Shown one piece after another: positions 30,846-41,880 of a stretch of 64,000 bases of DNA (within the stretch, counting starts at the first letter, position 1; each line of letters begins with the position of its first letter). The notes beneath the pieces were generated by a model. That model saw only the letters and a list, made by a program, of their open reading frames with translations. It was not told the origin of the DNA and did not search any database. This DNA comes from Haloarcula hispanica ATCC 33960. GTDB lineage: Archaea > Halobacteriota > Halobacteria > Halobacteriales > Haloarculaceae. A program made the position numbers and the translations under genes. Location: positions 868,001-932,000 of the forward strand of contig NC_015948.1 of the NCBI RefSeq assembly GCF_000223905.1, read 5' to 3'.

Positions 30846-31973
30846 TCAGATCAGCCGTTCAACCGTCTCCCGTACGGCTCGCGCGGCGGTTCGCACTTCT
30901 GAGAGGCGGACGTACTCGCGTTTCGAGTGCGCAACGGCCCCTATCTCGTCGCTCAGGTCACCGGGGCCGAACACCACAGTCGGCCCGTTACTTGCGAAAT
31001 ACGAGGCCTCTGTCGCGGCCCCGAACTGTCGAACCCCGCCGCCACTAGCTTCCTGCAGTGTGCGGACCAGTTCCGCGTCGGTGTCGGTCGCAAACGCCTC
31101 GGGGAACGGCGTATCCGGGCGGATGAGGTCCACGGTGAGGTCCATCGACTCCGGGAGCCACTGTTCGAGGTGGGCCTGCAGGTCGGCACAGAAGGACTCG
31201 CTGGTCTCCGGCGGGACGCTCCGCCGGTCGAACGTGATGGTGCATTCGGCCGGGACCTGATTGGTCGCTTCGCCGCCCTCGACCATCGACGGGGTGAGAA
31301 TGGGGTAGCCAAGCGTTTCGTGTTCGCCGGGGCCTGTCTTCTCGTCGTATGCCTCCATCGCCTGCAGAATCGGCGCGGCGGCCCGAATCGCGTTGTGGCC
31401 GCTGCCGGGGTCGGCGGCGTGGGCGCTCTCGCCGTGGATGGTGACTGTCCCCTCGAACTGGCCGCGAGCGGCGGTACACACGTCGAGGCCGGTCGGTTCG
31501 CCGACGATGTAGCCGTCGGCGTCGACTGTGTCCGCGAGGTGTGCGCCGCCGGTCTGTGTCGTCTCCTCGTCGGTGGAGATCGCCAGCGTGACGCGGCCGT
31601 TGTCGGGCGTCACGGTGAGGAACGCATCGAGGAGTGCCGCGAGCGGCCCTTTCGCGTCGCAGGCGCCGCGGCCACAGACGATGTCGCCGTCCCCGTCACC
31701 GCCAGAGCCATCAATACTCTCGTCTGGCCCCGGCGGCTCCGTCCGCCGCTCGTAGGGCAGATGCGGCGGCACGGTGTCTATGTGCGTGTTGAGCAGGATA
31801 TGGGTCCCGTCGGTATCGCCACGGGACACGACGACGTTACCGAGGTCGTCTATCTCCGGGTACTCGCCGGCGTCTTCGAGCGTGTCGACCAGCAGCGAGC
31901 GCATGTCATCGACGCGCTCGTGTGACGGCGTTTCGACGGCCTGCCGGTGGAACGAAGGGATGTCGAACGCCAT
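30846..31973 (-). CDS. dapE: M20-family deacylase, probable succinyl-diaminopimelate desuccinylase
   Basis: Zinc hydrolase of 375 aa that would release LL-diaminopimelate from its N-succinyl form. Metal-binding segments are NTHIDTVPPH (His-Asp), GRGACDAKGPLAAL (bridging Asp), STDEETTQTGGAH (catalytic Glu plus metal Glu) and YIVGEPTGLDV. The dimerisation domain sits in the middle (GESAHAADPGSGHNA), and the last His ligand is near the C-terminus. It overlaps lysA by one base (stop and start share an A), so the two are translationally coupled and the function is assigned from this context; other M20 deacylases look similar. Confidence 0.85.
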   Translation of the reverse strand: MAFDIPSFHRQAVETPSHERVDDMRSLLVDTLEDAGEYPEIDDLGNVVVSRGDTDGTHILLNTHIDTVPPHLPYERRTEPPGPDESIDGSGGDGDGDIVCGRGACDAKGPLAALLDAFLTVTPDNGRVTLAISTDEETTQTGGAHLADTVDADGYIVGEPTGLDVCTAARGQFEGTVTIHGESAHAADPGSGHNAIRAAAPILQAMEAYDEKTGPGEHETLGYPILTPSMVEGGEATNQVPAECTITFDRRSVPPETSESFCADLQAHLEQWLPESMDLTVDLIRPDTPFPEAFATDTDAELVRTLQEASGGGVRQFGAATEASYFASNGPTVVFGPGDLSDEIGAVAHSKREYVRLSEVRTAARAVRETVERLI

Positions 31974-33208
31974 TACCGCTCCATGCGAGTCACGTCCGCC
32001 AGCGTCTCACGCTCCCGCACGATGCGGGTCTCGCTGTCCTCGAACGCGACTTCCGCCGGCCGCGGCTGGGAGTGGAACTGGTTCGCCAGTTCGTAACCGT
32101 ACGCGCCGGCGTTGCCGATGGCGAGCAGGTCAGTCCGCTCGGGTCGGGCGATGGGTCGGTCAGTACAGAACACGTCGGCGCTCGTACAGCACGGACCACC
32201 AACGGACACCGGTTCGGCTTCCCGGCCCGGCGCAGTGACGTTCCGAATCGGGTGGTAGGAGCCGAACATTGCCGGTCGGATGAGCGTCGCCAGCGAGGCG
32301 TCGACGCCGACGACGGTCGCCGCCGGCGTCTCCTTGACCGTGTTGACCTCGGTGAGAATCAGTTCGGCGTCGGCGACGACGTAGCGACCGGGTTCGAGTT
32401 TGACCTGCGCGTTGAGGTCCCCGACCGCCTCGCGGACCTTCTCGCCGACGGTATCCATGTCCAGCGGCTCGACAGTCTCCCTGTAGGGAACGCCGAAGCC
32501 GCCGCCGAAGTCGACAAAGTCCAGTTCCGCGCCGTCGGCGATGACTGCTCGGCCCATGTCGGCGACCTTGGCGATGGCTCGGCAGTGGTCGTCTAAGTCG
32601 TCGTGGAGAACGCCGCTGCCGGCGTGGGCGTGCAGGCCGACGAGGTCGAAGCGCTCGCGCACGTCGGCCGCGACTTCGGGCACCTCATCGTAGGGGATGC
32701 CGAACTTGGCGTCTTTCCCCGTCGCCACTTTCTCGTGGTGGCCCGTCCCGATGCCGGGGTTGATGCGGATGGCGACCCGGCCGTCGTAGCCGCGTTCTTC
32801 AAGGCGGTCGAAGGTGTCCCGCGCGCCGGCCGTAATCGTCAGGCCGGGGTTCTCGGCGGCCAGTTCGACGGCACGGTCGAGGTCGTGATCCGGCGGATTG
32901 ACGGCCGTGTACTGGAGCGTGTTCGGGTCCGCGCCGGCATCGATAGCCCGCTGGAGTTCCCCCCAGGCCGCACACTCGATGTCCGCGCCCGTCTCAAGCA
33001 GTTTCGAGAGGACGGCCTGTCCGGTGTGGGCCTTCGCGGCGTACATGACATGGGCGTCGGGGAACGCCGCGGCAAATCGCTCGTAGTTCTCGGCGACGCG
33101 GTCGAGATCAACGACGTACAGCGGCGTGCCGTGCTCGGCAGCCACCGCCTCCAGACGCTCGTGGTCCCAGTCCGCGAGGCGGCGGACCGGCGGCGAGTCG
33201 TGGCTCAT
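31973..33208 (-). CDS. lysA: Diaminopimelate decarboxylase
   Basis: PLP enzyme that makes L-lysine from diaminopimelate; 411 aa, cytoplasmic. The fold-III barrel carries the PLP lysine in VMYAAKAHTGQAVL, LHAHAGSGV (the usual HIGSQ region), the phosphate-binding FGGGFGVPY and KLEPGRYVVADA. The C-terminal beta domain has the substrate-binding GGPCCTSADVF and NAGAYGYELANQFH. The ATG at 33206-33208 is chosen over a 46-codon upstream extension, which is arginine-rich and unlike the family. The stop overlaps the dapE start. The next upstream genes on this strand are not dap genes: a 4.5 kb block separates it from dapD. Confidence 0.93.
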   Translation of the reverse strand: MSHDSPPVRRLADWDHERLEAVAAEHGTPLYVVDLDRVAENYERFAAAFPDAHVMYAAKAHTGQAVLSKLLETGADIECAAWGELQRAIDAGADPNTLQYTAVNPPDHDLDRAVELAAENPGLTITAGARDTFDRLEERGYDGRVAIRINPGIGTGHHEKVATGKDAKFGIPYDEVPEVAADVRERFDLVGLHAHAGSGVLHDDLDDHCRAIAKVADMGRAVIADGAELDFVDFGGGFGVPYRETVEPLDMDTVGEKVREAVGDLNAQVKLEPGRYVVADAELILTEVNTVKETPAATVVGVDASLATLIRPAMFGSYHPIRNVTAPGREAEPVSVGGPCCTSADVFCTDRPIARPERTDLLAIGNAGAYGYELANQFHSQPRPAEVAFEDSETRIVRERETLADVTRMER

Positions 33209-33397
33209 TGGGGAAACCACGGTGTCGGCGGCTAACAAGGGTTCCGTTTCGATACACACAGCGCCCCAACTGGCCATCTCTCTATCGGGCGACGGTCGGA
33301 TGCGGACGGTGCTGCGCAACAATCGTCTGTCGGCGCGTGAGGACACACCGGTATGTGAGCCGTGCCTGCCGATTCGAGCCAGCAGTACTGTTCCCGG

Positions 33398-33877
33398 TTA
33401 CTCTGTGCGTTCTGTCGACCGTTCTCGAACGTGTACGACACCGTCGTTTGTCACATCAATGCGGAGTGGCACCTGCACCGTGTCCTGCTGAATCGCCCCA
33501 TCGACGGCGTCATCGATGAGTTGCAACAGATTCGAGGAGCCGTAATTGACCTCCACACCGGCCTCATCACAGGCGGCATACACCGTCGGTGGAATATCGT
33601 AGATATCGGTCCCGGCTTCGATGTCAACACAAACGGGTGCGGTCAGGGTGTTTGCGAAGGCGACCGTCTGGCGTGCTTTTTCGACGTTTTCTCTCGCATT
33701 GCGCTCGATACTTGAAATATTCGCGCGTGACGTGCCGAGCAACTCCCCGATATCGCTCTGACGGACATCGTTTTCGCGGAGCGCAAGTACCTCCGCTTGC
33801 CGGCGCGTTAGCACGCTCTCGTCCGCATCAAAGCCGACAGCAGCGAGCAGTTCGCCCGGGTCGATTCGTTCATCCAT
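33398..33877 (-). CDS. Tfx-family DNA-binding protein
   Basis: Archaeal regulator of 159 aa. The N-terminal helix-turn-helix at about 20-62 (LTRRQAEVLALREN, QSDIGELLGTSRANISSIER) is of the sigma-70 region 4/LuxR type, as in Tfx. The C-terminal domain has ICVDIEAGTDIYDIPP-like residues (VCVDIEAGTDIYDIPPTVY) and is likely a ligand or oligomerisation domain. The founding member binds the promoter of a molybdenum formylmethanofuran dehydrogenase operon in methanogens. The ATG at 33875-33877 gives MDERIDPGELL. It sits 121 nt downstream of an aldehyde dehydrogenase operon on the same strand, so it may regulate it. Ligand unknown. Confidence 0.82.
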   Translation of the reverse strand: MDERIDPGELLAAVGFDADESVLTRRQAEVLALRENDVRQSDIGELLGTSRANISSIERNARENVEKARQTVAFANTLTAPVCVDIEAGTDIYDIPPTVYAACDEAGVEVNYGSSNLLQLIDDAVDGAIQQDTVQVPLRIDVTNDGVVHVRERSTERTE

Positions 33878-33998
33878 AGCCACAGGTCGGTAGCTGGACT
33901 GAAAACAACGTTGTTGCCAGCCGCGAGCGGCCATCCCTGGCCGTACTAAGTAAGGTGGACTGACCCTGAGCGACAGCACAGACTGCTGACTGCCGAGT

Positions 33999-34370
33999 TC
34001 ACTGTTCGGTAACGGACACAGCGCCTGGCGACTGCCAGCGGGTCACGTCGCCGCTTGGGTGGCGTGCCATGACAATCGATTCGGCGTCGTGTGACCGGGC
34101 GAACCGCTTTACCATGGCCGTTTCGGTGAAGTCATCCGGGGCATCGATATACACACGTCTGGTCAGCCCATCTGTATGCAGTGACACCCATCCGGCCAGC
34201 GCCAGTTCGGTTTTGGGGTCTCGTGTCCCCGCAGCAGCGTCGGGCACCACTGCCCGGAACAGCCGCTCGTGCATCCCTGACGGGACGACGTATTTCGTCC
34301 CGTCGGGGGCGATGGACACGTTGGCGGCTTCAATCTGTCCGGGAGGGACTTGCGGGAACGGGACGCTCAC
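33999..34370 (-). CDS. Conserved-looking small protein coupled to aldehyde dehydrogenase
   Basis: Unrecognised soluble protein of 123 aa. Its GTG start (34368-34370) begins one base after the stop codon of the aldehyde dehydrogenase gene, so it is certainly translated from the same message. The sequence is mixed alpha/beta with no signal or membrane helix. Visible patches are APDGTKYVVPSGMHERLFR, LALAGWVSLHTDGLTRRVYI and SIVMARHPSGDVTRWQSPG. The tight coupling suggests an accessory or partner role for the dehydrogenase, for example as a small subunit or substrate-delivery protein, but this is inference only. Confidence 0.7.
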   Translation of the reverse strand: MSVPFPQVPPGQIEAANVSIAPDGTKYVVPSGMHERLFRAVVPDAAAGTRDPKTELALAGWVSLHTDGLTRRVYIDAPDDFTETAMVKRFARSHDAESIVMARHPSGDVTRWQSPGAVSVTEQ

Positions 34371-34371
34371 A

Positions 34372-35898
34372 TCAATCGAGTGAAATATTCACCGTCTTCG
34401 TCTGCGTGTAATGTTCGATCGTTTCCTCGCCGATCTCTCGACCGATTCCCGACTGCTTGTATCCGCCGAACGGCTGGCCTGCCGGGAAGTCGTTGTAGGT
34501 GTTGACCCAGATGTTCCCCGCTTCGATGTCTTTTGCACACTGGTGCGCCTTCGAGAGGTCTTCTGTGAGGACTCCTGCTGCGAGACCGTAGTCGACATCG
34601 TTAGCCAGTTCCATCATCTCATCGTACTCGCTCCAGCTGAACACTTCCTGAACCGGGCCGAAGATTTCTTCCTGGACCGGTTTGCTGTCGTGGTCAATCT
34701 CGTCAATAAGTGTCGGCGCGACGAAGCAGCCATCCGAAAGGGCTTCGTCGTCCGGCTGACTCCCTCCGGTGACGAAAGCGGCTCCTTCCTGTTCTGCCTC
34801 CTCTATGTAGCCCAGCGTCCGCTCGACCTGCTCTGCGGTCACTTTCGGGCCGAGGTCTGTCGCCTCCAGCAGTGGGTCATCTACAGTTAGGTCCTCGGCT
34901 GCAGCCGCAAGCTCATTCAGGAACTCGTCTTTGATGTCTTCATGGACGAACAACCGTGACCCGGCACAGCAACACTCACCGGTGTTAAAGAAGATTGCCG
35001 TAATCGTCGTCTGGACAGCCTGTTCCAGGTCTGCATCGGGGAACACAATGAGTGGACTCTTTCCGCCCAGTTCCAGCGTCACGTCGGTGATGGTTTCGGC
35101 GGCGCTTTGCATCACTTTACTCCCGATTTCTGTCGATCCAGTGAACGCTAGCTTCCGGATGTCAGGGTGTTTCGAGAGCGGCTCCCCTGCCTCCGGACCG
35201 AACCCGGTGACGACGTTAACGACGCCGTCGGGAATCACATCTTCCGTAATTTCCATCAGTTTGAGAATACTCAGCGGCGTCTCCTCGGCAGGCTTCAGTA
35301 CGACGGTGTTACCGGCCGACAGCGCCGGGGCGAGCTTCCAGGCCGCCATCAGCAACGGGAAGTTCCACGGGATTATCTGTCCAACAACCCCATACGGCTC
35401 CCGGAGCGTCTGGACGTGCCGGCTGTCGTCAGTTTCAATGGTCCGTCCCTCGCCCGACCGAGCGAGACCTGCGAAATACCGGAAGTGGTCGATAACGAGG
35501 TCAATATCGATCCGAGCCTCGCTAATCGGTTTCCCGTTATCTAAACTTTCGAGCTTCGCGAACTCCTCGCTGCGCTCCGCAATGGCATCTGCGATACTAT
35601 CCAGCATTGCCTGGCGTGCGCCTGTAGACATATCGCTATACGTCTCGTCGTAGGCGTCCCATGCGGCCGCAACTGCACTGTCAATATCCTCCGCAGTGCC
35701 GGCTTGCACTTCCGCAAGCGGTTCACCGGTTGTCGGGTCTATCGTTTCGAATGTCTTCCCGGCGCTACTCTGGACCCATTCCCCACCGATGTACAGTTCC
35801 CGCCGATCCGGCAGCACCTCGTTTGCCGCCTGTTCGTGACGCTTCTTTATCGCTGACTTCCGCTCGGTTGCGCTCTGCTGCTTGCTGTCACTAGACAT
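34372..35898 (-). CDS. Aldehyde dehydrogenase (ALDH superfamily)
   Basis: NAD(P)-dependent aldehyde oxidation, 508 aa, cytoplasmic. Key motifs are IIPWNFPLLMAAWKLAPAL, the cofactor helix FTGSTEIGSKVM, the general base Glu in LELGGKSPLIVF and the catalytic Cys in FNTGECCCAGSRLFV, where three cysteines lie together as in betaine-aldehyde and retinal-type ALDHs. EEIFGPVQEVF and PFGGYKQSGIGRE close the pattern. An N-terminal charged extension of about 30 residues (KQQSATERKSAIKKRHEQ) is not part of the catalytic fold. Codon third positions look less G+C-rich than in the dap genes, hinting at later arrival. A TATA box at 35927-35935 precedes the ATG. Confidence 0.92.
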   Translation of the reverse strand: MSSDSKQQSATERKSAIKKRHEQAANEVLPDRRELYIGGEWVQSSAGKTFETIDPTTGEPLAEVQAGTAEDIDSAVAAAWDAYDETYSDMSTGARQAMLDSIADAIAERSEEFAKLESLDNGKPISEARIDIDLVIDHFRYFAGLARSGEGRTIETDDSRHVQTLREPYGVVGQIIPWNFPLLMAAWKLAPALSAGNTVVLKPAEETPLSILKLMEITEDVIPDGVVNVVTGFGPEAGEPLSKHPDIRKLAFTGSTEIGSKVMQSAAETITDVTLELGGKSPLIVFPDADLEQAVQTTITAIFFNTGECCCAGSRLFVHEDIKDEFLNELAAAAEDLTVDDPLLEATDLGPKVTAEQVERTLGYIEEAEQEGAAFVTGGSQPDDEALSDGCFVAPTLIDEIDHDSKPVQEEIFGPVQEVFSWSEYDEMMELANDVDYGLAAGVLTEDLSKAHQCAKDIEAGNIWVNTYNDFPAGQPFGGYKQSGIGREIGEETIEHYTQTKTVNISLD

Positions 35899-36377
35899 AT
35901 CTACGGCAAATATTTCATGCTATCAATACTTAAAGTTTCAGGGTGGTGTAGCCAGTAGCGATTACAAAAACTCGGAACTCGGCCAAAAAGAAACCACTAT
36001 AGGTTTCACCTTGCCCAATACAGTCCTAATACACGCTCGATATGTCGCCTGTGAGACCGCTGGAGAGCGTCGTCAGGAACCGCTGTCGTCTTATAACTAA
36101 AAGCACATACCGATACAGAAACGCTCGTTTCGGTCCAGTCCCAGAGGCCGATGTCCACGTTTCGAGGGCCGCTACTCCGCGCACCCCACTCTCTCTGCGT
36201 GCGTCTTCTGGCTCCATTGTTTTCAGTGTCTCCTCTCCATCGGCGACGACAACACCGCGGCGCGGACAGACCGCTCGGTCTGGACGAGTGCGGCCCGGCT
36301 CACACCGTTCGGGTGGCGTTCTCGCTGCCTGATAATGTTATCACACATTTATCATGTTCCCAATACAATCAAATCGC
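35899..36377. other. 479-bp intergenic region, divergent promoters
   Basis: The right side of the aldehyde dehydrogenase gene and the left side of the bactofilin-like gene are separated by 479 bases with reduced G+C up to about 36120. The ends hold the two promoters: TACTTAAAG (35927-35935) reading left and CATTTATCA (36346-36354) reading right. A short inverted repeat AGACCG-CT-CGGTCT lies near 36268-36281. No open frame has convincing codon usage. The middle may be the scar of an insertion. Confidence 0.5.
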
Positions 36378-37496
36378 ATGTCTTCCAGACTCGCCAGCGG
36401 CGGCCTCCGGGTCGCTACGCTCGCGCTCGTGTCGCTCGTTTTGCTATCGACTGTGGCCGGTACCGTTGCCGCGCAGTCGTATCAGGGAGCAAGCGGAACC
36501 ATAATCATCGGACCTGACGAGACGTACGACAGCGTTGAGGGGGTCGCCGGGACGGTCATCGTTCGCGGGACGGTGACCGGAGACGTCGAAACCGCGGCAG
36601 GGACCGTCCACGTCACCGAGGCCGGTGAGGTGGGTGGGAACATCGAGGCTGCGGCGGGGACTGTCCGTATCGACGGCACTGTCGGCGGCAACGTCAGCGT
36701 CGCCGGCGGGACAGTCGAGATCGGCGAGACAGCCCAGATTGGCGGACACCTCGAAGCAGGTGCTGGCTTCCTCGCGATTCATGGGACGGTCAACGGGACC
36801 GTCCGTGCTGGTGCAGAGGAGTTCGTCCTCGGGCCGACGGCGTCGGTCGGCGGCGACGTCCGCTACGACGCAGCCACGTTCACCCGCGATCCCGAGGCCA
36901 CCATCGGCGGGAGTGTCGTTCAGGACGAGAGCATCGGCGACAGCGCCGGGCCGGACTCCGGCGAGTTCGCGCTTCCGTCATGGATCGGTGTCGTCTACGG
37001 CCTGCTCGTAAACCTCCTGCTGGGTGCGATCCTACTGGCCGCCTTCCCGTCGTTTTCAGCGCGCGTCGCCGGACACGTCGCGGAGCGCCCGGCGAAGTCC
37101 GGGGGCGTCGGCCTGCTGACACTCGTCGCCGTGCCCGTCGTCCTCGTCGTTCTCCTGTTCACCATCGTCGGCATCCCGCTCTCGCTGGTCGGTGCCGTCA
37201 TTTTCGGCGTCGCGGTGTGGGTCGCCGTCGTCTACGGCCAGTTCGCCGCTGGGTCGTGGGCGCTCTCGCTCGCTGACCGGGAGAACCGCTGGCTCGCGCT
37301 CGTCGTCGGCCTCATCGGGTTTGCAATTCTCGGTGCGATACCGGTTGTCGGGTGGGTGTTCGAACTGCTTGCGCTTTTACTCGGCCTCGGCGCACTGGCA
37401 CTCACCCTCAGAGAGTCCTACCAGCGCCGTGGGAACGTCGCAGACGGGCGGCAAACGACACTTGACGAGATCGACAGCGATACCACCGCGGCCTGA
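36378..37496 (+). CDS. Bactofilin-like repeat protein with C-terminal membrane domain
   Basis: Membrane protein of 372 aa. A signal peptide (about 8-33, ending VAAQS) is followed by about 140 residues of a beta-solenoid: short units of the form GTVxVxGTVxGDV recur about every 17-20 residues (VIVRGTVTGDVETAAGTV, VRIDGTVGGNVSVAGGTV, LAIHGTVNGTVRAGAEEF), as in polymer-forming bactofilins. The C-terminal half has about four helices from residue 208 (VVYGLLVNLLLGAILLAAF, VVLVVLLFTIVGIPLSLV). The topology puts the solenoid outside the cell, unlike bacterial bactofilins. The ATG at 36378 has a TATA box 28 nt upstream. It lies opposite to the dap genes that flank it. Confidence 0.8.
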   Translation: MSSRLASGGLRVATLALVSLVLLSTVAGTVAAQSYQGASGTIIIGPDETYDSVEGVAGTVIVRGTVTGDVETAAGTVHVTEAGEVGGNIEAAAGTVRIDGTVGGNVSVAGGTVEIGETAQIGGHLEAGAGFLAIHGTVNGTVRAGAEEFVLGPTASVGGDVRYDAATFTRDPEATIGGSVVQDESIGDSAGPDSGEFALPSWIGVVYGLLVNLLLGAILLAAFPSFSARVAGHVAERPAKSGGVGLLTLVAVPVVLVVLLFTIVGIPLSLVGAVIFGVAVWVAVVYGQFAAGSWALSLADRENRWLALVVGLIGFAILGAIPVVGWVFELLALLLGLGALALTLRESYQRRGNVADGRQTTLDEIDSDTTAA

Positions 37497-37694
37497 AGTC
37501 CGAGCGACACGCCGCCGTTGGCTCCCCTCCAGTCACTCAGCTTCGATACTCAACAACTCTTGACCGTGGCGTAGACTGTCTCAACTATCAGTCCGTCCAC
37601 CAGATGCGCCCGCCGGACGAGGTGATGCCGAGAGCGCTCTCCACGGTCGAAACTCCATTGCTCGCGGGTCACTTCGCTCACCGTTCGCTTTACC

Positions 37695-37718
37695 GAGGGC
37701 CGCGCTTCGCGCGCCCTC
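37695..37718 (-). terminator. Hairpin just after dapD
   Basis: GAGGGC-CGCGC-TTC-GCGC-GCCCTC forms a near-perfect stem (one bulged base) ending 1 nt from the dapD stop codon. It could end transcription or protect the 3' end. There is no T-run directly after it, so an ordinary archaeal terminator is not assured. Confidence 0.45.
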
Positions 37719-37719
37719 G

Positions 37720-38550
37720 CTACTCCCGAAGCGCGTCTTCTCTCTCCGTCGCTTCCAGCGTCTCCTCCTCGACATCGGTCGCCACCACAGCGGGCTTGTA
37801 CGCCCCGCCGGGAATCAGGTCGTTCTCGCCGACTGAAGAGTCGACGAAGCGCTGGAAGGCGCGCCGTTCCGGCGGCAGTTCGCCGTACAGTACCTCGTCC
37901 TTGACGAGATCGTAGACGGGAATCCGCGGCGTCAGGAGCGTGTTCTCACCGACAATCGAGCCTTCGCCAACGACGAAGCCGCTGGTGACGCGACAGCCAG
38001 CGCCCAGCGATACCTCGTCCTCAACGATGACTGGGGCGTTCTCGACCGGTTCGAGGACGCCGCCGATGAGCGTGTTCGCGCCGAGCTTGACGTTCTCGCC
38101 GATCTGGGCGCAGGAACCGACGGTGTCACAGGAGTCGATGAGCGTCCCGTCGCCGACGTACGCCCCGATGTTGACGAACGAGGGCGACATCATGATGCAG
38201 TCCTCACCGAGGTACGCGCCACGGCGGATGGTCGTGCCGTCCGGCGTGTTGCGGGTCCCGCGCTCGCCGAGGTCCTCAGTCTCCCGGAGTGGGAGCACGT
38301 CGTGGTAGTCGACGCCGCCGTACTCCCGGGCGACGGTCTCGCGCAGGCCGAAGTTCAGCAGAATGCCCTGCTTGACCCACGCGTTCGCCTCCCACTCGCC
38401 GCCAGACTTCTCCGCGGCGCGGACCTCGCCGGCTTCCAGCGCCGTGAGGAATTCATCGAGTACAGCGAGGTGGTCGTCGGTCGTGTCGGCCGCCGAGAGG
38501 CCGTCCTGTTTCCGTTGCCAGAGGTCGTCGATATCGGCTTCGAGGCTCAT
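37720..38550 (-). CDS. dapD: 2,3,4,5-tetrahydropyridine-2,6-dicarboxylate N-succinyltransferase
   Basis: Succinylates tetrahydrodipicolinate in the succinylase branch of lysine synthesis; 276 aa, cytoplasmic trimer. After an N-terminal helical domain (about 1-95) a left-handed beta-helix of hexapeptide repeats runs to about 245: LGEDCIMMSPSFVNIGAYVG, GTLIDSCDTVGSCAQIGENV, KLGANTLIGGVLEP, VSLGAGCRVTSGFVVGEGSI. These are the textbook DapD repeats. The order on the minus strand is dapA-dapB-(zinc ribbon)-dapD, then the pathway is broken by the bactofilin/ALDH block before lysA-dapE. Together with DapE it shows that the succinyl, not the acetyl or dehydrogenase, branch is used. Confidence 0.94.
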   Translation of the reverse strand: MSLEADIDDLWQRKQDGLSAADTTDDHLAVLDEFLTALEAGEVRAAEKSGGEWEANAWVKQGILLNFGLRETVAREYGGVDYHDVLPLRETEDLGERGTRNTPDGTTIRRGAYLGEDCIMMSPSFVNIGAYVGDGTLIDSCDTVGSCAQIGENVKLGANTLIGGVLEPVENAPVIVEDEVSLGAGCRVTSGFVVGEGSIVGENTLLTPRIPVYDLVKDEVLYGELPPERRAFQRFVDSSVGENDLIPGGAYKPAVVATDVEEETLEATEREDALRE

Positions 38551-38636: not shown

Positions 38637-38768
38637 TCAGTCGGACCCGCGGCCGGGGATGTACCCGCATTCCCGGCACATACTGATGCGCGGTGCCGTC
38701 GCTTCGAATTCACTGGAACATCGTGGGCAATCGGTCGCTGGTAGTTGTACGTGCTGGTTCGTAGCCAT
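38637..38768 (-). CDS. 43-residue zinc-ribbon protein
   Basis: Very small protein found by reading the gap between dapD and dapB. It starts MATNQHVQLPATD, has two CxxC knuckles (CPRC at 14-17 and CREC at 31-34) around SSEFEATAPRISM, and ends GYIPGRGSD. The four cysteines should hold one zinc ion. Such mini zinc-finger proteins are frequent in haloarchaea and some affect swarming or biofilm formation. A perfect TATA-like CATATAAG at 38791-38798 lies 27 nt before the ATG, so it is leaderless and independently transcribed. Codon use fits the genome. Function unknown. Confidence 0.82.
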   Translation of the reverse strand: MATNQHVQLPATDCPRCSSEFEATAPRISMCRECGYIPGRGSD

Positions 38769-39047: not shown

Positions 39048-39797
39048 TCAGGCGTCTACAACGTCGCCGAACTCGTACCAGCCGGCGTCGCAGCCGACGA
39101 GCCACGTCGCCGCGTCCAGTGCGCCGGCGGCGAACACACCGCGGTCCTCGGCCCGGTGGGAGAGCGAGAGGACTTCGTCGTTGCCGGCCAGTACGAGTTC
39201 GTGCTCCCCGCGAATGTCACCGGCTCGCCTGGCGAACACGCCGATTTCGTCGTCGTCGCGCGGTGCGTGCCCTTCCCGGCCGTACACCGGCTCTACGTCG
39301 CGCTCCTCTTGGATCACGTCGAGGATGCTGTTGGCCGTCCCCGACGGCGCGTCGACCTTGCGGTTGTGGTGGGTCTCCATGAGTTCGAGGTCGTAGTCGT
39401 CGAGCGTCCCGACGGCCTCGCTGACGAGGCGCTGGAGGACCTGAATTCCCTGCGAGAAGTTGGTCGCCTTCAGCAGCGGAACCTCCTCACTGGCGTCTCG
39501 CAGACTGGCCATCCCGTCCTCGTCGAAGCCGGTGGTTCCGACGACCATCGAGACGCCCGCTTCGACGCAGGCTTCGGCGACGGTCAGCGCACCCTCTGGG
39601 ACAGCGAAGTCGACGACAACGTCCACGTCGTACTCCCGGAGCGCCTCGGCGGCATCGGCGAGGTCGACGACAGGGACGCCGTCGACCGCGTTGGTATCGC
39701 TGGTCGCAAAGCCGACCACGACCTCGCTGTCGGTGGCGGCCTCGATGACAGCGCCACCCATCTGGCCGGTGACGCCGTTGACCGCCACCCGCGTCAT
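39048..39797 (-). CDS. dapB: 4-hydroxy-tetrahydrodipicolinate reductase
   Basis: NAD(P)H-dependent reductase of the lysine pathway, 249 aa. The Rossmann motif GVTGQMGGAVIEA is at about 9-21, GTTGFDEDGM marks the nicotinamide loop, and ATNFSQGIQVL and ETHHNRKVDAPSGTANS give the substrate-binding and catalytic HH-RK region, the DapB signature. A C-terminal HELVLAGNDEVLSLSHRAED completes the dimer domain. Its ATG overlaps the dapA stop by 4 nt (ATGA), so it is translationally coupled to dapA. Confidence 0.95.
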   Translation of the reverse strand: MTRVAVNGVTGQMGGAVIEAATDSEVVVGFATSDTNAVDGVPVVDLADAAEALREYDVDVVVDFAVPEGALTVAEACVEAGVSMVVGTTGFDEDGMASLRDASEEVPLLKATNFSQGIQVLQRLVSEAVGTLDDYDLELMETHHNRKVDAPSGTANSILDVIQEERDVEPVYGREGHAPRDDDEIGVFARRAGDIRGEHELVLAGNDEVLSLSHRAEDRGVFAAGALDAATWLVGCDAGWYEFGDVVDA

Positions 39798-40714
39798 CGC
39801 TCGGCCTCCGCGTACTCGTCTTCGAGGTCTTCGGTTTCGAGCGTCGCGAGCACGTCACGCAGGTGGTCGAGGTGTTCGTCGGACAGGCGGGTTAGCGGCG
39901 AGCGGAGGTACGCCGGGCCGTAGCCTCTGATCCGCATTGCCTCCTTGACCGGGATGGGGTTCGTCTCGACGAACAGTGCGCGGAACAGCGGGCCGAGTTC
40001 GTGGTGAATCGCTCTCGCTCGCTCGAAGTCGCCGGACAGCGCCGCACCGACCATCGCGCAGGTGCGCTCCGGTTCGATGTTGGCCGAGACGGAGATACAG
40101 CCGGTCCCGCCGACCGACAGCATCGGTAGCGTCATCCCGTCGTCGCCGGACAGCACCGCGAAGTCCTCGTCCTGCGTGCGTTCGATGATCTCTGAAATCT
40201 GTCCCATGTCGCCGCTCGCAGCCTTGTAGGCCCGGATGTTCGGGTGTGCGGCGAGTTCGACCGCCGTATCCGGGTCGATGTTCTGGCCCGTCCGCGAGGG
40301 GACGTTGTAGACGATCTGTGGCAGGTCGACGGCGTCAGCCAGCGTCGTGTAGTGGTCGAGGAACCCCTGCTGTTCGGGCTTGTTGTAGTACGGCGAGATG
40401 AGCAACAGCGCGTCAGCGCCGGCCTCGGCGGAGCGCCGGGACAGCTCCAGCGCTTCCTTGGTGTTGTTCGACCCCGAGCCGGCGATGACCGGCACGTCGT
40501 CGACGGCGTCGATGACCGCCTCGACGACCTCGATGTGTTCGTCGTGCGAGAGCGTCGCCGATTCACCGGTCGAGCCGACCGGAACGAGGCCGTCGACGCC
40601 GGCGGATTCGAGCCGCTGGGCGTCCTCTTGGAGTGTTTCGAAGTCGATACTGCCGTCCTGGTGGAACGGCGTGCACATAGCCGGGAACACGCCGCGGAAG
40701 TCGATAGCTGTCAT
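39794..40714 (-). CDS. dapA: 4-hydroxy-tetrahydrodipicolinate synthase
   Basis: Condenses pyruvate with aspartate semialdehyde, the first committed step to diaminopimelate; 306 aa TIM barrel. The signature GSTGESATLSHDEH is at about 47-60, the catalytic Tyr in QIVYNVPSRTGQN, and the Schiff-base lysine in IRAYKAASGDMGQ (about 165). SVGGTGCISVSANI also fits. It is first in the dapA-dapB pair. Upstream (40715-41226) no strong TATA box is seen at the usual distance, so the mRNA may have a leader. Confidence 0.94.
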   Translation of the reverse strand: MTAIDFRGVFPAMCTPFHQDGSIDFETLQEDAQRLESAGVDGLVPVGSTGESATLSHDEHIEVVEAVIDAVDDVPVIAGSGSNNTKEALELSRRSAEAGADALLLISPYYNKPEQQGFLDHYTTLADAVDLPQIVYNVPSRTGQNIDPDTAVELAAHPNIRAYKAASGDMGQISEIIERTQDEDFAVLSGDDGMTLPMLSVGGTGCISVSANIEPERTCAMVGAALSGDFERARAIHHELGPLFRALFVETNPIPVKEAMRIRGYGPAYLRSPLTRLSDEHLDHLRDVLATLETEDLEDEYAEAER

Positions 40715-41226: not shown

Positions 41227-41880
41227 ATGCGTCGAAGACACTATCTTTTAGCCACCTCCAGCGTCTTCGGATTCGCCGGCTGTTCGAGTACCAGCAGTGA
41301 TCCGACCGAGACAGCTGCAAAAACGGAAACCGAGAACACTGAGCAACAAACAGCTGGAAATACCGAAGAGATGACAGAGCGTCAACTCAGTGGTCACATT
41401 CGGCCAGCTGAGAGTCCTGAGTCCCCGGTAAAAGAACTCTCGTGTGAGAAGGGCAACTTCACTCGCCACCCGCCAATGTATGACGAAGGCTCCGTTCCGT
41501 GGGGAGATACCGGGTATGTATCACTACGGATTGATGGGACAGCGTTTGAATACGGTGACACAGCCCAAATTACGCTGACAAACACGTCTGATAGCACCCT
41601 CACTCTGGGTCTTAAGTATCTGTACCAGATCGAACTGCTCACTGAAGATGGCTGGCAAGATGTCCGTGGACAGACCGGGGACGATGAGTTTCAATACGTG
41701 GATATGGGTACCGAGGCAGCGCCTGGGCAGGTATTTGAATGGTCGCTCCGTCTGACCGAAGAGGGGGTTGTTCCTGACGAGAAGGATTTTACTGTGTGTC
41801 CTGAACTCGTCTCCGGTCGGTATCGGTTCGTCTACTGGACAGTTACTCCGGTAGCAGTTGCGTTCGACCTCCAGAAGTAG
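41227..41880 (+). CDS. Tat-exported lipoprotein, unknown function
   Basis: Secreted lipid-anchored protein of 217 aa. The N-terminus MRRRHYLLATSSVFGFAGCS has a twin-arginine and a lipobox ending in Cys 19. A Ser/Thr/Glu-rich spacer (about 20-60) leads to a beta-sandwich-like domain with GDTAQITLTNTSDSTLTLG and FEWSLRLTEEGVVPDE, resembling immunoglobulin-like folds that stand at cell surfaces. Two cysteines (about 71 and 198) could form a disulfide. Base composition is more A/T-rich than the flanks (third positions include many A and T), suggesting recent gain. No substrate-binding motif is recognised. Confidence 0.78.
   Translation: MRRRHYLLATSSVFGFAGCSSTSSDPTETAAKTETENTEQQTAGNTEEMTERQLSGHIRPAESPESPVKELSCEKGNFTRHPPMYDEGSVPWGDTGYVSLRIDGTAFEYGDTAQITLTNTSDSTLTLGLKYLYQIELLTEDGWQDVRGQTGDDEFQYVDMGTEAAPGQVFEWSLRLTEEGVVPDEKDFTVCPELVSGRYRFVYWTVTPVAVAFDLQK

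Follow-up and report, generated by a model that had tools for sequence, protein, structure and literature searches.

A DapF-free lysA-dapE cassette and a variable cargo site in the lysine gene cluster of Haloarcula hispanica

Two branches of the diaminopimelate (DAP) pathway are the closest described systems for the lysine gene cluster studied here, which lies in a 64,000-nucleotide stretch of the Haloarcula hispanica ATCC 33960 genome (contig NC_015948.1, positions 868,001 to 932,000; the whole stretch is hereafter the window). The succinylase branch comprises dapA-B-D-C-E-F-lysA and is represented by Haloferax volcanii HVO_1096-1101, and the dehydrogenase branch, with the meso-DAP dehydrogenase Ddh as in Corynebacterium glutamicum, does not need DapF. 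For Har. hispanica, a 2023 paper (PMC10433800, citing Hochuli 1999) reports a dehydrogenase-type route to lysine from labelling. That paper adds that haloarchaea have no identified Ddh or DapC, and counts the dap genes, apparently with dapF among them, as conserved in Har. hispanica. It was suggested in 2012 that some other gene replaces dapF in Har. marismortui and others (PMC3402447). Among the enzymes themselves, Thermotoga maritima DAP decarboxylase (DAPDC) uses Glu315 to recognise the distal amine of DAP and Arg249 and Arg285 to bind the distal carboxylate (Marjanovic et al. 2021, PMC8277567), and the engineered E315T variant lost most of its DAP activity, gained activity on 2-aminopimelate and now favours a substrate without the distal amine (PMC8277567).

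The window holds homologues of dapA, dapB, dapD, lysA and dapE in the same order as the succinylase branch, including both DapD and DapE of the canonical succinylase pathway:

39794..40714, minus strand: dapA, dihydrodipicolinate synthase (PF00701, E=1.7e-92)
39048..39797, minus strand: dapB, dihydrodipicolinate reductase (PF01113, PF05173)
37720..38550, minus strand: dapD, tetrahydrodipicolinate N-succinyltransferase (PF14805; NF008808 above cut-off)
31973..33208, minus strand: type-B lysA, a DAP-decarboxylase homologue with F315, T342, F378, H379 and Q381, belonging to a monophyletic clade
30846..31973, minus strand: type-B dapE, an M20 succinyl-DAP desuccinylase homologue with Gln172

Coordinates and profile matches agree in placing all five genes on the minus strand, as a sequence-only reading of this DNA had proposed. 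That reading overlooked the absence of dapF, which normally sits between lysA and dapE. The window differs from the succinylase branch in this absence, in LysA, where the distal-amine Glu, two Tyr residues and a YNxR motif are altered, and in DapE, where Arg172 is replaced by Gln; it differs from the dehydrogenase branch in having retained dapD and dapE.

Searches of the Har. hispanica genome for dapF gave two sub-cut-off matches with the PF01678 profile, for which Hfx. volcanii served as a positive control, and no match in a dapF protein search. The better of the two weak matches is proline-racemase-like and the other PhzF-like, as judged by motif and length only. When 145 relatives were searched with the dapF protein, 71 had the gene and 74 did not. 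The absence is nearly genus-wide and disagrees with the listing of dapF for Har. hispanica in PMC10433800. The lysA genes of the relatives fall into two types, canonical and that of the window (type B), and dapF occurs in 67/67 genomes of the first type vs 4/72 of the second (Fisher p ~3e-35). Where lysA was not fetched, the type was assigned from the percentage identity with LysA of the window (≥64% for type B, ≤62% for canonical). Three of the four type-B genomes with dapF (G026, G029 and G064) carry it in unrelated operons outside the lysine cluster, and these extra copies do not break the near-perfect linkage between LysA type and dapF loss; the fourth, G046, has dapF beside lysA. The 38 named type-B genomes, which include Halosimplex, Halovenus, Natrialba, Natronococcus and Halonotius, gave a DapF above the Pfam cut-off in the two Halohasta species alone. 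The Ddh profile PF16654 matched none of the 145 relatives, with the C. glutamicum control positive, and a hidden meso-DAP dehydrogenase was rejected on this count.

In type-B LysA, five residues that the canonical enzyme conserves are replaced in a linked manner (Y315F, E342T, Y378F, N379H and R381Q). These five columns split 111 type-B from 64 canonical sequences completely, columns 337 and 374 also distinguish the two types, and four bacterial LysA sequences from the PDB match the canonical residues at all five. In the window the changed codons are:

32264..32266, minus strand: codon 315, Phe for the conserved Tyr
32183..32185, minus strand: codon 342, Thr, equivalent to T. maritima Glu315, which recognises the DAP distal amine
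32066..32077, minus strand: codons 378-381, FHSQ instead of YNxR

The equivalence of E342 to T. maritima Glu315 and of Y378 to Tyr351 was set by spacing from the Tyr of the pyridoxal phosphate (PLP) site and between the two Arg residues. Both Arg residues of the distal-carboxylate site, Arg275 and Arg311 (T. maritima Arg249 and Arg285), are invariant in 111/111 type-B sequences. The distal-amine Glu, which 64/64 canonical sequences and the 4/4 from the PDB share, is Thr342 in 111/111 type-B sequences. Since the Arg residues are kept and the Glu is lost, the predicted substrate has a distal carboxylate and no free distal amine, and N-succinyl-DAP fits this description. The same Glu-to-Thr change, with the distal-carboxylate Arg residues kept, defines the T. 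maritima E315T enzyme; that enzyme was engineered, whereas type-B LysA is natural, has four further linked substitutions and has a substrate predicted from its sequence. NCBIfam scores type-B LysA as an ordinary diaminopimelate decarboxylase (TIGR01048, 325.6 bits for the window protein, cut-off 297.9), so routine annotation would hide the difference.

The partner DapE also separates into two sets. Position 172 is Gln in 84/84 partners of type-B LysA vs Arg in 58/58 canonical partners, position 140 is Gln, Met or Arg vs Ser or Thr, and apart from an indel region these two of ~375 positions are the only ones that separate the sets. Codon 172 of the window gene (31458..31460, minus strand; Gln, with Arg in dapF-bearing clusters) aligns with Ser181 of Haemophilus influenzae DapE, a residue that docking brings into contact with the pimelate's terminal carboxylate (PMC5919655). 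Decarboxylation as the earlier step would remove this carboxylate. Counted as unique combinations, 86 pair type-B LysA with Gln172 and have no dapF nearby and 58 pair canonical LysA with Arg172 and have dapF adjacent, with no mixed combination among them; the linkage of LysA type to DapE residue 172 is perfect. The window DapE belongs to the M20 superfamily together with ArgE/DapE and the N-acetyl-lysine and [LysW]-lysine deacylases, in which N-acyl-lysine deacylation is known; it differs from these in that NCBIfam matches it best to succinyl-DAP desuccinylase (NF006402), and its activity on N-succinyl-lysine is a prediction.

Type-B LysA forms one clade (99% by the Shimodaira-Hasegawa-like approximate likelihood ratio test, SH-aLRT) within haloarchaeal LysA, and one branch (94%) separates type-B from canonical DapE. 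On a tree of dapD, LysA type has switched 14 times, at least six of them on well-supported branches, and among 6 independent pairs dapF tracks the type in 5.2, with none going in the opposite direction. The simplest reading of this repeated exchange is that haloarchaea hold two exchangeable cassettes, lysA-dapF-dapE and a DapF-free lysA(B)-dapE(B). At the base of the type-B clade are intermediates with YEFHQ (L282, genome G130) and FSFHR (L283, genome G087) at the five positions; these loci have no dapE or dapF nearby, in genomes that are incomplete.

Our best explanation for the locus, which we judge to have about an even chance of being right, combines cargo at a module seam with a DapF-free cassette in which LysA(B) would act on N-succinyl-DAP before DapE(B) acts. 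LysA(B) would take N-succinyl-DAP and decarboxylate it at the free end, which derives from pyruvate, yielding N-succinyl-lysine; DapE(B) would then strip the succinyl group to leave lysine. DapF would be dispensable, as decarboxylation would come before desuccinylation. At the free end, either LysA(B) would accept an L centre or DapC would make a D centre. We infer the substrate, the reaction order and this stereochemistry from the residues described above. Because the N-succinyl intermediate is asymmetric, its decarboxylation would leave label unscrambled without Ddh. We lean very slightly against, but find nearly as credible, the wider proposal that this is a DAP pathway variant widespread in haloarchaea, with an evolved LysA on N-succinyl-DAP, a co-evolved DapE and neither DapF nor free DAP, and that the two-gene cassette spread horizontally and replaced lysA-dapF-dapE several times. 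The linked LysA and DapE residues bring the dapF gap, noted since at least 2012 (PMC3402447), and a reported labelling result that has had no gene to match it (PMC10433800) into one assay-ready hypothesis. If it is true, lysine synthesis that bypasses free meso-DAP would be a natural counterpart of the engineered enzyme. We found no report of an N-succinyl-DAP-first route in the open-access literature, which is not proof of novelty.

Several observations weigh against decarboxylation of N-succinyl-DAP by LysA(B). The T. maritima E315T enzyme kept its D-stereopreference (PMC8277567), and LysA(B) may therefore not take a free end of L configuration. The role of DapE residue 172 comes from docking. 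Of 18 type-B genomes examined for a window-type DapE, which were mostly picked for having no dapE next to lysA, 13 gave none at E<=1e-30, so that another deacylase or route is needed there. Halohasta, L188 and H-GB1-1, with dapF directly upstream of type-B lysA and no DapE nearby, are true exceptions to the linkage. The loci with this third arrangement of dapF and type-B lysA without dapE are L181, L183, L188 and L202, and the proposed mechanism does not explain it. Relations between species are approximated here by the dapD tree, and as LysA(B) and DapE(B) are each a single clade, some of the discriminating columns may have been inherited rather than selected.

The loss of DapF could be accounted for in other ways. 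A non-orthologous DAP epimerase might replace it, with LysA still using meso-DAP, as has been proposed for Har. marismortui and others (PMC3402447), and the Har. hispanica genome does encode the proline-racemase-like and PhzF-like proteins. We nevertheless think this unlikely: about half of the genus and most of the type-B genomes lack the proline-racemase homologue, which is also present in genomes that have dapF, and the linked active-site changes of LysA and DapE would go unexplained. This homologue, the sole epimerase candidate screened, was rejected as a general DapF substitute because its distribution is wrong. An altered stereospecificity of LysA(B) could instead make the epimerase unnecessary, if DapE acted first as usual and LysA(B) then decarboxylated free LL-DAP. 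The loss of dapF does follow LysA type, and changes in the distal pocket could alter which centre faces PLP, but we hold this to be quite unlikely, as LL-DAP keeps its free distal amine and the loss of the amine-binding Glu is left unexplained, as is Arg172Gln in DapE. Label passing through LL-DAP should be scrambled, since the molecule is symmetric. This is contrary to the dehydrogenase-type labelling reported for Har. hispanica.

The same reported labelling would agree with an unrecognised meso-DAP dehydrogenase or D-forming transaminase that makes the D centre, an arrangement that could be combined with either LysA(B) substrate, and so would haloarchaea having no identified dapC. It is opposed by the PF16654 result, and a plain Ddh bypass is unlikely given that the cluster keeps dapD and most type-B loci keep dapE; moreover, a meso-DAP substrate would not favour losing the distal-amine Glu. 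We consider it very doubtful.

Some DapF-like genes lie outside the lysine cluster. At L147 (8389-10498) and L289 (4330-6416) such a gene is paired, off the main lysine cluster, with a gene of ~400 amino acids, followed in both by a similar open reading frame (ORF) of ~175 amino acids on the opposite strand; this may be a separate biosynthetic pair. At L148 (8498-15568), in G029, a DapF-like gene neighbours a distant LysA paralogue (31%) and ORFs resembling TrpG/PabA and chorismate mutase, in what looks like a small natural-product cluster.

Between dapD and lysA the window carries genes unrelated to lysine, and those that the sequence-only reading had named are confirmed in identity and place:

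33209..37719, no strand assigned: variable cargo region between dapD and lysA, with blastn junctions at ~33255 and ~37660-37715 and contents that vary between congeners
36354..37496, plus strand: bactofilin-like predicted beta-helix with transmembrane helices, an independent module of host-like G+C content (AlphaFold, Foldseek)
34372..35898, minus strand: aldehyde dehydrogenase (ALDH) of a betaine aldehyde dehydrogenase (BADH)-like subfamily, below the equivalog cut-off (PF00171, 3e-176)
33999..34370, minus strand: 123-amino-acid ORF adjoining the ALDH gene, found in 18/145 relatives
33398..33877, minus strand: Tfx family DNA-binding protein (PF14601; NF003054 above cut-off)

The bactofilin label is supported by the AlphaFold model, which predicts a right-handed beta-helix core over residues ~50-190 (pLDDT ~90) and has the Thermus bactofilin 6rib as its top Foldseek match (probability 1.00, TMt 0.72, E=8e-3). 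It shares the predicted beta-helix domain with the bactofilins and differs in having a signal or transmembrane helix before it and several transmembrane helices after it, and in having no Pfam match. The ALDH scores 548 bits against TIGR01804, for which the cut-off is 669. The 123-amino-acid ORF matched no Pfam or NCBIfam family and gave a poor structure model (pLDDT 50). It lies beside the ALDH gene in most of the 18 genomes in which the two co-occur (33999-35898 in the window), and outside the core Haloarcula group the pair is found elsewhere in the genome; adjacency of Tfx to the pair is seen at the dapD-lysA site.

The dapD region was taken from ~60 relatives, whose genomes were searched too. 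In most other haloarchaeal families, used here as outgroups, dapA-dapB-dapD-lysA-dapF-dapE is contiguous, so that the dap genes are adjacent elsewhere in the class, and the block is absent from some relatives of Har. hispanica. Sequence shared by the genus ends ~45 bp upstream of lysA and restarts at the dapD stop codon, with all between them varying. The ALDH-DUF-Tfx operon occupies the site in eight genomes (the window, G003, G005, G018, G019, G021, G028 and G031) and the bactofilin-like gene in 12, four of them with the ALDH operon; G019 retains a bactofilin remnant. Elsewhere the gap holds a 450-amino-acid ORF, a multi-helix ORF of 560-590 amino acids or a 180-amino-acid ORF, and in G012, G014 and G017 it is a near-empty spacer of 157-219 bp. 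On a tree of the flanking genes in the genus, ALDH presence requires three changes and bactofilin presence seven.

The gap is a turnover spot filled stepwise by accessory cargo, and the block is cargo unrelated to the lysine genes at a permissive seam. Since lysA-dapE is itself an exchanged cassette, this seam is also the one at which a dapA-dapB-dapD module meets a lysA-dapE module. The sequence-only reading had noted A/T-richer spacers and proposed an insertion into an ancestral operon, and material has indeed been added to an ancestrally contiguous cluster, by separate events at a hotspot and with losses. That a single 4.5 kb insertion broke the operon, and nothing more, would agree with the contiguous outgroup clusters, the low G+C of part of the block and its presence or absence at a fixed site. 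We regard it as extremely improbable, given that the bactofilin and ALDH parts occur independently, with congeners holding one module at the same junctions, that other genes fill the same gap elsewhere, and that it ignores the loss of dapF. In the base composition profile, low G+C (53-61%) is confined to ~33250-36400, covering Tfx, the 123-amino-acid ORF, ALDH and the spacer upstream of ALDH, with G+C at third codon positions (GC3) of 0.62-0.71 in the Tfx, DUF and ALDH genes. The bactofilin-like gene is host-like (G+C 66%, GC3 0.78), and hence the 4.5 kb does not form a single unit by base composition. No integrase or transposase was found among the ORFs of the block, no tRNA within the window and no convincing terminal repeats flanking the block; these marks of a mobile element are missing, and tRNA-associated integration was rejected on the last two counts.

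At the other end of the cluster, a lipoprotein-like ORF (41227-41880, plus strand) of low G+C (53%, GC3 0.53) adjoins dapA; of the congeners fetched, only a few had a match to it. The dapB-dapD gap is a second variable gap, of 0.02-3.8 kb in congeners. In the window it holds a 43-amino-acid ORF (38637-38768, minus strand) with a CPxC...CxxC zinc-finger pattern, the conserved stretch of which is distant from dapD in several congeners because this gap varies as well.

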